Assembly: GCF_000255135.1 (NCBI RefSeq)
Contig: NC_016751.1
Span: 620,001-684,000, forward strand
Direction: 5' to 3'
DNA length: 64,000 nt
From: Marinitoga piezophila KA3
Lineage (GTDB): Bacteria > Thermotogota > Thermotogae > Petrotogales > Petrotogaceae
Position numbers and translations under genes: made by a program. The notes under the pieces were generated by a model, which was not told the DNA's origin, did no database searches, and saw nothing but the letters and a program-made list of their open reading frames with translations. The number at the start of each line of letters is the position of its first letter. Position 1 is the first letter of the stretch. This document shows, piece by piece, positions 22,345 to 64,000 of this stretch.

Positions 22345-22797
22345 ATGCGAGAAGTATTTATGGTTGGAAACATAGAAGACAATAATGTATATCTTATTAG
22401 CAACATGAGTTCCGCATGTGAAACATGTACTCTAAATGGAGCATGTAGTGCTGGAAGTTCACAAAGAACCATGAAAATTAATAAATCTCAATTTGAAAAA
22501 ATGCCTTCAATTGGAGATTATGTTGTAATAGAATTACCGGAATTTTCTGTATCCAAAATTTCATTCATTATATATGGCTTTCCTCTTATAATGTTTATTC
22601 TATTTTTAGTTATTGCATATTTTATTACAAAAAGCGATACTTATGCTTTTGTATCAGGGATAATTGGAATATCAATTTCATATGGAGTAATTGCCTATCT
22701 TGATAGAACCGTCTTTAAAAAGAAATATCAACCAAAAGTTATTGAAATACTTCCAAAAAGAAATAATATCAATTTATCTGTTGGTATAATAAAATAG
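22345..22797 (+). CDS. rseC: RseC/MucC-like membrane protein
   Basis: A 150-residue protein. The N-terminal soluble part has the cysteine cluster CETCTLNGAC near residues 24-33, and the middle has two transmembrane helices (about 74-95 and 100-120). This is the SoxR-reducing-system RseC family architecture. ATG 22345 is chosen because CGGAGGA lies five to six bases upstream. It is the last gene of the sigma operon, and its stop codon lies in the arm of the following terminator. The cysteines may give a redox input to the sigma system, which is inference. Confidence 0.85.
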   Translation: MREVFMVGNIEDNNVYLISNMSSACETCTLNGACSAGSSQRTMKINKSQFEKMPSIGDYVVIELPEFSVSKISFIIYGFPLIMFILFLVIAYFITKSDTYAFVSGIIGISISYGVIAYLDRTVFKKKYQPKVIEILPKRNNINLSVGIIK

Positions 22798-22826
22798 CGA
22801 GCTTGTTTATTCAAGCTCGCTATTTT
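22791..22826. terminator. Bidirectional terminator
   Basis: A perfect 15-base-pair stem (22791-22805 with 22812-22826, core AGCGAGCTTG), a 6-base loop, and A/T-rich ends that give a T run on both strands. It serves the sigma operon and the converging MFS gene. Confidence 0.92.
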
Positions 22827-22830
22827 ATTA

Positions 22831-24081
22831 TTAAATCTCATTATGAGCTGCAAACTTTAAAGAAATAAGAGTCAAAACTATTAAACCAATAGAGACTATA
22901 CTTAATGCATAACCTATTCCTATCAAATCTGCTAAATATCCTATAACAGGAGTTAATATCGCTGTTAAAAGAGTTTTAAATTGCGATTCAACTGAAAGTA
23001 CAGAAGCAAGAATATTATTATCTATATTATTTGAAATATAGGCTACGCTTATAGGCTTCCTTAAATTTTCTATTAAATATATTCCAAGGTAAAAGATAAT
23101 AGAAATTGTAAATAATTTAAATTCATAGGTTATTCCACTTAATATTCCAAAAACAAACCCAAGACTCATTGTTAATACCAGCGGCTTCAAATATGTTTTA
23201 AACTTTTCAGCAAACTTACCAGAACGTCTTGATACAAAAGATGTAAGAAAATATATTACCGAATATACTATACCAATTACCAGCGAAGAGCGTTTATCTT
23301 CACTTAAACTCATAAATATTGGTAAAGATATTGCAAATGATTTCAACATAGGTTGCAAAAAGTCTTTTACTGCAGAATAATAACCTGTATATGATGAACT
23401 TATTAAAATGCTTCCAAATAATCTTGCACTTTTAAATGCCACAGCAAATTCTTTAATTACCTTTTTAAATGAATTGGTAAACTCTTTAAAATCAAATCTT
23501 TCAAGCGTTCCATCTAATTCCTTTGGATAAGTGAGCATTAGAATTAAATCGAAAATATACGGAATTATCGTAAATAAAAATATAGTTTGATACTTTCCAG
23601 AATAAAATACAATACCACCAGCTATTAAAGATGAAATAGCAGATCCCAGCTGTGAACATGATCTTGTATTACCATAATAATGAACCTTCATCTTTTCCCA
23701 GCCTTTGATTTTTAAATATTCAAAAATCATAGCTTTATGCGTTCCTGTTCTAAATGCCTCACCAAAAGCATAAAGGATCATCGCAAATGCAAAAATAGTA
23801 TAACTTTTAGAAAAATAAAAAATAATGAAAGAAATTATATAACTTGAAAAAGAAAATACCATAGATCGCCTTCTACCAACAGAATCAGCAATAATCCCAG
23901 TTGGAATTTCAAGAATATTTGTCGCAATTTTCATTATTGAATAAAGCGTACCTATTTGAAAGAAGTTAAGCCCTTTTTCAAGAAAAAACAAAACAAGAAA
24001 AGGCTCAAAAAATCGCAAATTTTTCAAAAATCCATAAGCACAAAACTTATAAAACTGTAAATCCTTGTACTTTTTATCCAT
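22831..24081 (-). CDS. Major facilitator superfamily transporter
   Basis: A 416-residue protein with 12 predicted membrane segments. The loop between helices 2 and 3 has the MFS signature form (IPTGIIADSVGRRRSMVFS). Helix 4 to 5 contains YAFGEAFRTGTHKAMIFEYL, a motif common in uncharacterised MFS permeases. The substrate is unknown; drug or metabolite efflux is possible. It lies 17 bases downstream of uvrB on the same strand and is probably co-transcribed with it. Confidence 0.85.
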   Translation of the reverse strand: MDKKYKDLQFYKFCAYGFLKNLRFFEPFLVLFFLEKGLNFFQIGTLYSIMKIATNILEIPTGIIADSVGRRRSMVFSFSSYIISFIIFYFSKSYTIFAFAMILYAFGEAFRTGTHKAMIFEYLKIKGWEKMKVHYYGNTRSCSQLGSAISSLIAGGIVFYSGKYQTIFLFTIIPYIFDLILMLTYPKELDGTLERFDFKEFTNSFKKVIKEFAVAFKSARLFGSILISSSYTGYYSAVKDFLQPMLKSFAISLPIFMSLSEDKRSSLVIGIVYSVIYFLTSFVSRRSGKFAEKFKTYLKPLVLTMSLGFVFGILSGITYEFKLFTISIIFYLGIYLIENLRKPISVAYISNNIDNNILASVLSVESQFKTLLTAILTPVIGYLADLIGIGYALSIVSIGLIVLTLISLKFAAHNEI

Positions 24082-60345: not shown

Positions 60346-60367
60346 AAAGATGAAAGGGGGAATTGCT

Positions 60368-61618
60368 ATGGCCGAGAAAGAACTAAGAGAAATTATTTCC
60401 CATACCATTAATTCTGTATTACCCGAAAATGCCGTAAAAAAACATATAAGTAAATTTTCAGAAATTCAAAACAATAATAAAATATTCTTATTATCAATTG
60501 GAAAGGCTGCATGGAGAATGGCTAATGCTGCTAAAGAAATATTAAAAGATAAAATAAAAGATGGTATAGTTATTACAAAATATAAGCATAGCCTGGGAAA
60601 AATCGATTCACTTGAAATCTTTGAAGCAGGACACCCAATACCAGATGAAAACAGTTTAAATGCCACAAAAATCGCAATTGAAAGAATTAAAAAGTTACCA
60701 GATGATTATATTATTTTATTTTTAATATCCGGTGGTGGTTCAGCGTTATTTGAAATGCCAGAAGATAATATTACATTACATGACATACAGAATATTACCG
60801 ATCAACTTTTAAAATCTGGTGCTGAAATTAATGAAATAAACATGATAAGAAAAAGACTTTCCAGGGTAAAAGGTGGAAAATTTGCTAATTTAATTTATCC
60901 AAAAAATATATATGCTCTTGTATTGTCCGATGTACTTGGCGATAATCTTGAAAGTATTGCTTCCGGTCCAGCCTATCCTGATAAATATACATACAATGAC
61001 GTGTTAAATGTAATAAAAAAATATGAGTTAAATATTAATGATAAAATACTTTCACTCCTGAAAAAAGAAACACCAAAAAATATTCAAAATGCCAAACATA
61101 TAATAATTGGAAGTGTAAGACTCGCCTGTGAAGAAGCTATAAAAAAAGCTAAAGAATTGGGATATAATACATTATTGCTTACTTCCATATTAAATGCCGA
61201 AGCAAAGGAAGCTGGAAAAATCTTTGCTGGAATTGCCAAGGAAATAATTACAACGGGAAATCCCTTAAAACCTCCTGCTGCAATAATCGCTGGAGGAGAA
61301 ACCATAGTTTATGTTAAAGGAACTGGTTATGGCGGAAGAAATCAGGAATTATCATATTCTTTTGCTATTGATATAGAAGGTTTTGAAAATGTTTATTTTT
61401 CTTCCTTTGGAACAGATGGAACAGATGGTCCTACAGATGCAGCAGGAGGAATTGTAAACGGAAAAACAATAACTAAAATTCGAAAAAAAGGGCTTGATCC
61501 TGAAATTTATTTAGAGAATAACGATACCTATAATGGGTTAAGTGAAGGTGAGGCTCTTTTAAAAACCGGTCCAACAGGAACCAATGTCAATGATATAATG
61601 ATATTACTTGTTGATTGA
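60368..61618 (+). CDS. gck: Glycerate 2-kinase (MOFRL/GckA family)
   Basis: A 416-residue two-domain protein. The N-terminal DUF4147 part has LSIGKAAWRMANAA, EAGHPIPDENS, LISGGGSALFE and NMIRKRLSRVKGGK. The C-terminal MOFRL part has GGRNQELSYSFAID and SFGTDGTDGPTDAAGG. It phosphorylates glycerate at C2, feeding glycolysis or serine degradation. ATG 60368 follows AAGGGGG. Its stop TGA lies at the edge of the large inverted-repeat element, which may act as its terminator. Confidence 0.95.
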   Translation: MAEKELREIISHTINSVLPENAVKKHISKFSEIQNNNKIFLLSIGKAAWRMANAAKEILKDKIKDGIVITKYKHSLGKIDSLEIFEAGHPIPDENSLNATKIAIERIKKLPDDYIILFLISGGGSALFEMPEDNITLHDIQNITDQLLKSGAEINEINMIRKRLSRVKGGKFANLIYPKNIYALVLSDVLGDNLESIASGPAYPDKYTYNDVLNVIKKYELNINDKILSLLKKETPKNIQNAKHIIIGSVRLACEEAIKKAKELGYNTLLLTSILNAEAKEAGKIFAGIAKEIITTGNPLKPPAAIIAGGETIVYVKGTGYGGRNQELSYSFAIDIEGFENVYFSSFGTDGTDGPTDAAGGIVNGKTITKIRKKGLDPEIYLENNDTYNGLSEGEALLKTGPTGTNVNDIMILLVD

Positions 61619-61879
61619 AATATAAAATCCTCTGAAGAATATATTATTTTTACAGTGTCCAATAATTTAAAAAAGCGAAAACTCGCAGATTGCCTGAAAA
61701 AATAGCGAATGGAACCGGTCAAAATCACATGGATGTGATTTTGAGTGAAGACGAACATGGACGTGAGTCTGCAACGACCGGTGGGAATGAGCTATTTTTG
61801 AAGATTTGCAATCAAGGTTTGAGCGTTTTTAATTATTGGACACTCAAATATTATTTTCAGAGGATTTTATATTTTTTTT
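61618..61879 (+). ncRNA. Rod-like structured element with two CsrA-type GGA hairpins (candidate sRNA, giant terminator or MITE)
   Basis: The outer arms 61618-61636 and 61856-61874 are perfect 19-base inverted repeats followed by T residues. Further inward, 61655-61667 pairs with 61831-61843 (13 of 13), 61698-61706 with 61791-61799 (9 of 9), and 61714-61720 with 61776-61782 (ACCGGTC/GACCGGT). The tip holds two hairpins. The first (61721-61742) has the motif ACATGGATGT at 61727-61736, and the second (61749-61770) has ACATGGACGT at 61755-61764; both match the CsrA-site consensus (A/U)CANGGANG(U/A) with GGA in the loop. The T tract suggests transcript ending. No promoter is obvious, so it may be processed from gck read-through. 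This element and the glgB leader fill the 388-base gap between gck and glgB. Confidence 0.6.
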
Positions 61880-61899
61880 AATATTTTTTATACTTTCTA

Positions 61900-61927
61900 T
61901 TGACAGCGCAAAAAAATGTGTTATAAT
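61900..61927 (+). promoter_or_regulatory. Promoter of glgB
   Basis: TTGACA (61900-61905), 16 bases and TATAAT (61922-61927) with an upstream TG. The predicted leader is about 73 bases and contains an AAAAGGAAAAA stretch but no strong hairpin; the ribosome site is AAGGGGG. Confidence 0.88.
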
Positions 61928-62006: not shown

Positions 62007-64000
62007 ATGGGAAGCATGCTTAATGATGAAATGTTAAAAATAGTAAAAGCTGAGCATCATGACCCGTTTTCAGTTTTAGGAATTCATAAATTAAATGAAA
62101 AGGAAATTGTTATAAGAACATTTCACCCTTTTGCTGAAAAAATAGAAATAATCAATTTAGATACAAAAACAAAAAGAAAATACAAAATGGAAAAAATACA
62201 TCCAGATGGATTATTTGAAAAGGTTTTAAAAAGAAAAACATTCTTTAAATATGAATTTTTATACACTGATTCAATTGGAAATAGCTGGAAGTCACGGGAT
62301 CCATACAGTTTTCTACCTGTTCTTACAGACTATGATCTGTATCTTTTTAATGAAGGAAATAATCATAAGATTTATGAAAAGCTTGGTGCTCATCCAATGG
62401 AAATAGATGGTGCAAAAGGAACATATTTTGCAGTATGGGCACCAAATGCTAAGAGAGTAAGCGTAGTTGGTAATTTTAATAATTGGGATGGCAGAGTTCA
62501 TCAAATGAGAGTTCTCGGAAGTTCTGGAGTCTGGGAAATTTTTATTCCATTGGTTCAAGAAGGAGATATTTATAAATTTGAAATAAAAACACAAACCGGG
62601 GAATTATTATTAAAGGCCGATCCATATGCAACATATACTGAATTGCGTCCTAAAAATGCTTCCATTGTTTATGATTTAAATAATAAACACAGATGGAATG
62701 ACAAAAAATGGATGGATAAAAGAAGAGAAACAAATTGGTTTGAAAAACCTATTTCTATTTACGAAGTTCATCTTGGTTCATGGAAGAAAAAAAATAATGA
62801 TGAATTCTTAAATTATAGAGAACTGGCACATCAGTTGGTTGAATACGTAAAAAAACACGGATACACTCATATTGAAATTATGCCAGTTTTAGAACACCCT
62901 CTTGATGAATCGTGGGGATATCAGGTAACAGGTTACTTTTCACCAACAAGTCGTTATGGAACACCTGAAGATTTTATGTACTTTGTTGATTATATGCATC
63001 AACATAATATTGGAGTTATACTTGATTGGGTTCCAGGGCATTTTCCAAAAGACGCACATGGCTTAGGAAAATTTGATGGAACAGCCTTATATGAACATAT
63101 GGATCCTCGATTAGGAGAACATCCAGATTGGGGAACATATATATTCAATTATGGAAGAAATGAAGTTAAGAATTTCCTTATATCCAATGCACTTTATTGG
63201 CTCGATAAATTTCATATAGATGGCTTAAGAGTTGACGCTGTGGCTTCTATGTTATATCTTGATTTTAGTAGAAAAGAAGGAGAATGGATACCAAATATTT
63301 ATGGCGGTAGAGAAAACCTTGAAGCTATAGAATTTTTAAAATACTTTAATTCAATTACTCATAAATACTTCCCTGGAATATTGACTATCGCTGAAGAATC
63401 AACTGCATGGCCAGGAGTATCTAAACCTGTAGATCTTGGCGGTCTCGGTTTTTCCATGAAATGGAATATGGGATGGATGAATGATTCATTGAGATATATG
63501 GCCAGAGATCCATTATTTAGAAAACATCATCAAAATGAATTGACTTTTTCACTGGTATATGCATTTTCGGAAAATTATATACTCGTTTTATCTCATGATG
63601 AAGTTGTTCACGGAAAAGGTTCTATGATAAATAAAATGCCCGGGGATTACTGGCAAAAATTTGCTAATTTAAGGTTATTCTATTCTTATATGTTCGCACA
63701 TCCAGGAAAAAAATTATTGTTTATGGGCAATGATATAGCTCAATTTAATGAATGGAATTGTAAAAAAGCACTTGATTGGAATTTGTTAGAATTTGATTCT
63801 CATAAAAAGATGTTAAAATTAATCGATGATCTTAATAGGTTGTATAAAGAAAACCCCGAATTATATGAAGTTGATTATTCGCCTGAAGGATTTGAATGGA
63901 TAGATTATAATGATGCTGAAAATAGTGTTATTTCATTTATTAGAAAGGGTAAAAATCCTGATGAATTTATTGTTGCAGTATTTAATTTCACACCTGTTGT
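62007..64000 (+). CDS. glgB: 1,4-alpha-glucan (glycogen) branching enzyme, 3' partial
   Basis: The frame is open from ATG 62007 to the window end, giving 664 residues; the family usually has 630-760, so little is missing. An N-terminal CBM48 module (about 20-110) and a second beta module ([23 protein letters not shown] near 140) precede a GH13 barrel. Its motifs are [24 protein letters not shown] (Asp nucleophile), TIAEEST (Glu acid/base) and [13 protein letters not shown]. It makes alpha-1,6 branches in glycogen. It has its own promoter. No other glg gene is visible yet. Confidence 0.96.

Follow-up and report, generated by a model that had tools for sequence, protein, structure and literature searches.

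What is the long palindromic segment that separates a glycerate-kinase-like gene from glgB in Marinitoga piezophila KA3, and does it have anything to do with the RNA-binding regulator CsrA? In the window (the whole stretch of 64,000 nucleotides analyzed here), an earlier note had described positions 61618-61879 as a rod of nested inverted repeats and had read it either as a CsrA-sequestering RNA beside glgB or as a mobile, MITE-like repeat carrying CsrA sites. The rod itself was borne out: the segment is present at these positions, and its RNA folding energy of -102.1 kcal/mol lies far beyond that of 100 dinucleotide shuffles (mean -55.5, sd 4.6, z -10.1), none of which was as stable. Both strands fold, as with any palindrome. 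The perfect 19-bp outer stem followed by a T-run was confirmed as well, with 61618-61636 pairing with 61856-61874.

Two hairpins on the + strand, each with a predicted CsrA site, form the tip of the rod. Hairpin 1 (61719-61744; TCAAAATCAC-ATGGAT-GTGATTTTGA) presents the hexaloop AUGGAU on a C-G closing pair and a stem of 10 perfect pairs. Hairpin 2 (61750-61769; GAC-GA-AC-ATGGAC-GT-GA-GTC) presents AUGGAC on a stem with only 2 Watson-Crick pairs beneath the loop (the closing C-G included), then a tandem G.A step and 3 further pairs. Both hairpins had been called perfect, which is correct for the first, while the stem of the second is interrupted by the G.A step. Both loops match the CsrA form (A/U)CANGGANG(U/A), and the additional GGA triplets that had been mentioned are three in number on the + strand of the element, at 61711, 61784 and 61838. 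The alignment of copies further delineated a conserved purine-rich internal loop on the + strand, the left side of which (GAATGGA; 61707-61713) is of the tandem-GA type and shows the excess of purine-purine mismatches given below, the right side being GGGAATGA (61783-61790).

The rod is two nested things, namely the terminator of a host gene and a 197-bp element inserted into it. The element occupies 61651-61847, with its GGA strand on the + strand, and is bracketed by an exact 10-bp direct repeat, ATATTATTTT, at 61641-61650 (p 0.02 against random flanks) and 61848-61857, the left and right copies of a target-site duplication. Its inverted ends, located by an end-pattern search and common to other copies and to an insertion sequence (IS), are TACAGTGTCCAATAATT on the + strand (61651-61667) and TTGAGTGTCCAATAATT read on the - strand (61831-61847). 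Outside the element are the left arm of the host terminator with part of its loop (61618-61640, +) and the right arm with the T-run (61856-61880, +). When the flanks are joined at one copy of ATATTATTTT, they give a clean hairpin followed by 8 T, with -30.3 kcal/mol. Because the joined flanks restore a terminator hairpin, the outer 19-bp stem is host sequence and not part of the element. The restored hairpin likely serves the upstream glycerate-kinase-like gene (60350-61618, +; a 422-aa ORF with PF13660 and PF05161) as its intrinsic terminator, and the sequence shows that the element was inserted into the loop of this terminator, duplicating 10 bp of the target. In six congeners, no element follows the corresponding gene, and the neighboring genes are arranged differently. 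Elsewhere in the window, the perfectly matching 20-bp arms of another inverted repeat enclose a loop of 6 nt (ATAATAAAATAGCGAGCTTG; 22786-22831), probably an ordinary bidirectional terminator.

The neighbor on the other side, glgB (62007-63998, +; PF22019, PF02922 and PF00128; running off the listed frame), stands outside the finding. Its predicted promoter, TTGACA-16-TATAAT with 12/12 sigma-70 consensus letters (61900-61927, +), lies downstream of both the element and the terminator, which places the element outside the leader of glgB; its absence from this site in the congeners likewise speaks against the leader idea. On the same two grounds, the link to glycogen genes proposed in the earlier note found no support, and the adjacency to glgB is incidental. 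Just upstream of the element, no convincing promoter was found on the + strand.

The identity of the core came from Rfam. At the gathering threshold, the window gave only a tRNA, and it was in the E-value mode of cmscan that 61681-61820 on the + strand appeared as a match to the full TwoAYGGAY model (RF01731, model positions 1-168) with 32.5 bits and an E-value of 0.0027, the gathering score being 43. Sibling copies in the same genome scored 50.8, 48.0, 45.5 and 43.4 bits. We regard the window copy as a member of TwoAYGGAY through its family, its own score being below the threshold. The traits of the motif are found in the window, namely the terminal loops AUGGAU and AUGGAC and tandem GAs in both the internal loop and hairpin 2 (GA/GA). 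Weinberg et al. (2010; PMC2864571) listed TwoAYGGAY among probable RNAs, with occurrences in gut metagenomes, gamma-Proteobacteria and Clostridiales, and its binding by CsrA was later proposed, without a test, with mention of the tandem GAs (Gardner and Eldai, 2015; PMC4333381). The motif itself is therefore already known; what is new here is TwoAYGGAY as a mobile, MITE-borne cargo.

The element proved to be multicopy. DNA and covariance searches combined yielded about 43 family matches in this genome (G000), at least 54 in G005, 41 in G003, 25 in G002, 5 in G004 and, as the highest number, 73 in the related genome G046, while G001 and G006 share one and the same syntenic copy. Two congeners hold a single relic copy elsewhere, one of them with the GGA lost. 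The ends, TAnnRTGTCCAA, match those of a decayed IS of about 1 kb with a DDE transposase in G001. The end-pattern search in this congener retrieved a 1031-bp element with TAGAGTGTCCAAAAAGT at both ends and a broken transposase, which matches DDE_Tnp_1 (E 5.6e-7) and, below the cut-off, the NCBIfam models for IS982, IS5 and IS4; G004 contains sequences whose ends are related to these and which have an N-terminus like that of IS5. Direct repeats of 9-13 bp lie 3-5 bases outside TGTCC in 18 of the 21 copies of this end type, each with p <= 0.05 against random flanks. Since its ends are common to the IS and a target-site duplication is present, the window copy belongs among the MITEs of an IS with a DDE-type transposase. 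Altogether, the copy number, the duplications, the IS-type inverted ends and the absence from this site in six congeners favor the MITE-like alternative of the earlier note, and the element is almost certainly a mobile MITE carrying a TwoAYGGAY core.

Other copies carry other ends (TTGATTGAG.., TTGGAAAAAAT.. and GAAAAC..), for which no duplications longer than 6 bp were found. Several of them are nested next to the tip of another copy, and the GATTGAGAAAAATAAAA... end type adjoins the broken tip hairpin of another copy (L090, L094, L099, L103, L104 and L110), which suggests that the elements insert into each other's tips and build concentric mosaics. The family as a whole is a mosaic around one conserved core with different outer ends. 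Copies with GTTGACAAAATAAAATAA ends (L033, L038 and L039; G003 and G002) have the same terminator hairpin on both flanks, as if the terminator had been duplicated or inverted upon insertion. Mobilization in the manner of REP/RAYT was ruled out by the lack of the Y1 transposase in element-rich relatives; PF01797 was absent from G000, G002-G005, G010 and G046.

The core is found well beyond this genus. At least 119 stretches in public genomes match the loop-pair pattern, where about 11 are expected by our own estimate, and Proteobacteria, Clostridia, a Spirochaetota MAG and others are among the matches listed. RF01731 matches numbered 62, 29, 28 and 13 in four Pseudomonas genomes, 32 and 18 in two Lachnospiraceae, 21 in a Clostridia MAG and 13 in Saccharospirillum; with so many matches per genome, TwoAYGGAY is a dispersed repeat in these hosts too. 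The copies in G000 often form inverted pairs, head to head and separated by a few hundred bp (C2, for example 1465667-/1466076+, 1499308-/1499718+ and 1620089-/1620382+). Such pairs also occur in Lachnospiraceae, Ruminiclostridium and Pseudomonas, where G116 has five of them with an identical spacing of 236 bp. In a Lachnospiraceae contig, a gene for an IS91-type Y2 transposase (PF04986 and PF14319; L316:2679-3878) lies between inverted TwoAYGGAY copies 3 kb apart. We considered this pair as a general autonomous form, but two other wide pairs (L320 and L321) enclose ordinary genes, and the arrangement was treated as chance.

The loops at both tips keep the form C-A(N)GGAX-G. In alignment columns taken with no loop filter, 62 of the 65 loops at either tip conform to it, although N, X and the stems are variable, and distant relatives in other families present the same loops on unrelated stems. 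The loops are likewise kept in copies from Pseudomonas, Saccharospirillum, Stenotrophomonas, Cellvibrio and Clostridia, which are not independent evidence, as these copies were found by the loop pattern or by a loop-rich model. The earlier note had named loss of the GGA hairpins among relatives as an outcome against its CsrA reading; most copies keep GGA, while 6 of the 130 loops in high-scoring copies of the genus do not fit and an extra hairpin module in G046 is often without it. In this third module, GGCAC-NNGAN-GTGCC, which lies beside the rods of G046 (L128-L147), the loops are AGGAC, AGGAU, ACGAC and AUGAC, and the stem is kept where GGA is lost. In one variant of the core in G000 (the L104 and L110 type), the usual hexaloop of the second tip is replaced by CAGGAGGTGATGT, which is a complete Shine-Dalgarno sequence.

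The stems covary. Across 36 aligned cores, 95.1% of the cells pair, against 35-49% in slid alignments, and 24 of the 33 pairs change on both sides, one-sided changes being rare. Stem segments may have been swapped or copied from arm to arm as DNA, and because such copying could give paired changes, the covariation shows a kept palindrome and not RNA as such. The loops described above are more telling. As for the strands, the GGA strand is more stable than its complement in 138 of the 141 copies, and its symmetric loops hold 1028 purine-purine against 176 pyrimidine-pyrimidine mismatches, both counts being of related and hence not independent copies. These point to the GGA strand as the putative functional strand. 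It also folds better under DNA parameters in most copies.

The host has the partner that such loops would need. A csrA gene, the presence of which the earlier note had left to be checked, was found by a PF02599 match adjoining fliW, and among the solved chains that its product matches are those of CsrA/RsmE, with the 2jpp group. In the high-affinity site as defined by NMR of RsmE (PMC4005645), the hexaloop ANGGAX is placed immediately on a stem and its N and X are looped out; the hexaloops of both window hairpins have this form and sit immediately on their stems. Between the starts of the two GGA motifs there are 28 nt, a distance within the 10-63 nt over which a CsrA dimer can bridge two sites (PMC7652899). 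In the set of relatives, all 11 element-bearing genomes have csrA and none of the 16 csrA-less genomes tested has the element, an association that is weak as the latter are mostly of one family. The loop conservation, the csrA-fliW pair and the Rfam match together make recognition of the core by CsrA probable, while a sponge effect on cellular CsrA is a more tentative prediction that we would not count on. Literature searches that combined CsrA with MITEs or REPs brought up no link of this regulator to mobile elements.

The orientation of the copies bears on how the RNA would be made. At co-directional intergenic sites, with genes called by a simple ORF script, the GGA strand is sense/antisense at 15/12 sites in this genome, 7/19 in G003 and 1/16 in G046; in the stretches with the antisense bias (L128-L147 of G046 and L148-L167 of G003), it is mostly antisense to both flanking co-directional genes. 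In G003 and G046, read-through would thus mostly yield the wrong strand, which argues against simple read-through there, nor could a promoter inside the element be established for its GGA strand. If the RNA acts at all, the bias would mean either that it is made in another way, or that sense insertions harmful through CsrA docking on mRNA were purged, or that the insertion mechanism sets the orientation.

The explanation that we consider probable overall, and the best on the sequence evidence, is a non-autonomous transposon (MITE) with a TwoAYGGAY RNA payload bearing CsrA-type docking loops. At the window locus, transcripts of the upstream gene would read through into the + strand of the element before they terminate, the RNA would present the two ANGGAX loops, and one CsrA dimer could bridge both. 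The outcome would be either titration of CsrA or a host transcript placed under CsrA control, and the payload might persist by making insertions tolerable or by many copies jointly buffering CsrA. Against this stands an inert or selfish palindromic repeat, the CsrA-like loops of which are leftovers or serve transposition at the DNA level, for instance in a single strand whose fold a recombinase recognizes, with CsrA making no contact. The high copy number, the intergenic positions, the insertion into a terminator and the decayed single copies would all suit such a repeat, as would the paired changes with few one-sided intermediates that DNA copying predicts, the antisense orientation in two genomes and the better folding of the GGA strand with DNA parameters. 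Against it, A and GGA remain constant across several end types and families in which N, X and the stems differ; the end type studied here moves with a DDE-type IS, which needs terminal repeats only, and the transposase that reads hairpins, Y1, is absent from the element-rich genomes named above. We therefore hold the inert repeat to be unlikely, though it is the most serious of the alternatives.

Two further readings are far less probable. The twin CsrA-type loops, the presence of csrA and the adjacent glgB would fit a dedicated RNA gene like CsrB or RsmZ, controlling CsrA and hence glycogen genes from the window locus, but the copy here has dozens of siblings and is bracketed by a target-site duplication, the locus is not conserved (six congeners have no element at the site, and the lone relics of two congeners, one without its GGA, lie elsewhere), and glgB has its own predicted promoter downstream; this reading is very improbable. 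Equally hard to credit is that the rod serves mainly as an enlarged terminator or an RNA-stabilizing 3' end of the upstream gene, in which the loops are irrelevant. The element does sit within the terminator of that gene, and the combined stem is extremely stable, but copies elsewhere occupy divergent intergenic regions and occur in either orientation, and the conservation of the loops is left unexplained.

In the preferred reading, that of a MITE with a TwoAYGGAY payload, the transposon cargo with exact ends and duplications explains the unrelated intergenic positions of a motif that has been an orphan since 2010. We put forward more speculatively, as a proposal with the odds against it, that transposons of several unrelated end types in several phyla picked up a CsrA-docking RNA and carry it in tens of copies per genome as a sponge or a passport for CsrA. 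If true, the CsrA pool would be set in part by the load of mobile elements, or binding by CsrA would let the elements persist; if CsrA binds the copies, mobile elements would place a direct load on a regulator with global control over carbon metabolism, motility and virulence. The question can now be tested in tractable hosts, such as the four Pseudomonas genomes with 13 to 62 matches.

Compared with known systems, the element shares with TwoAYGGAY (RF01731) a full-length covariance match, twin hairpins of the AYGGAY type, a three-way junction over a long stem and tandem GAs. The published motif is a sporadic RNA, whereas here it is a high-copy mobile repeat in Thermotogota with known element ends, and the loops AGGGAU, AAGGAU and AGGAX go beyond the published AYGGAY. 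With the sRNAs CsrB, RsmY and RsmZ, it has in common the hairpins with GGA loops, two of which could dock together on one CsrA dimer; those are single-locus genes with many sites, whereas the element here is dispersed, has two main sites and lacks an established promoter. Like the MITEs of DDE-type IS (IS5/IS982-like), it has IS-type terminal inverted repeats, 9-13-bp duplications and no coding capacity, but it differs from them in carrying a conserved structured core that is also found under other ends and in other phyla. Finally, the dispersed mosaic palindromes, often in inverted pairs, resemble REP, BIME and REPIN sequences, and are distinguished from those mobilized by RAYT in that the element-rich relatives have no Y1 transposase and the units are 190-260 bp with conserved twin tips.
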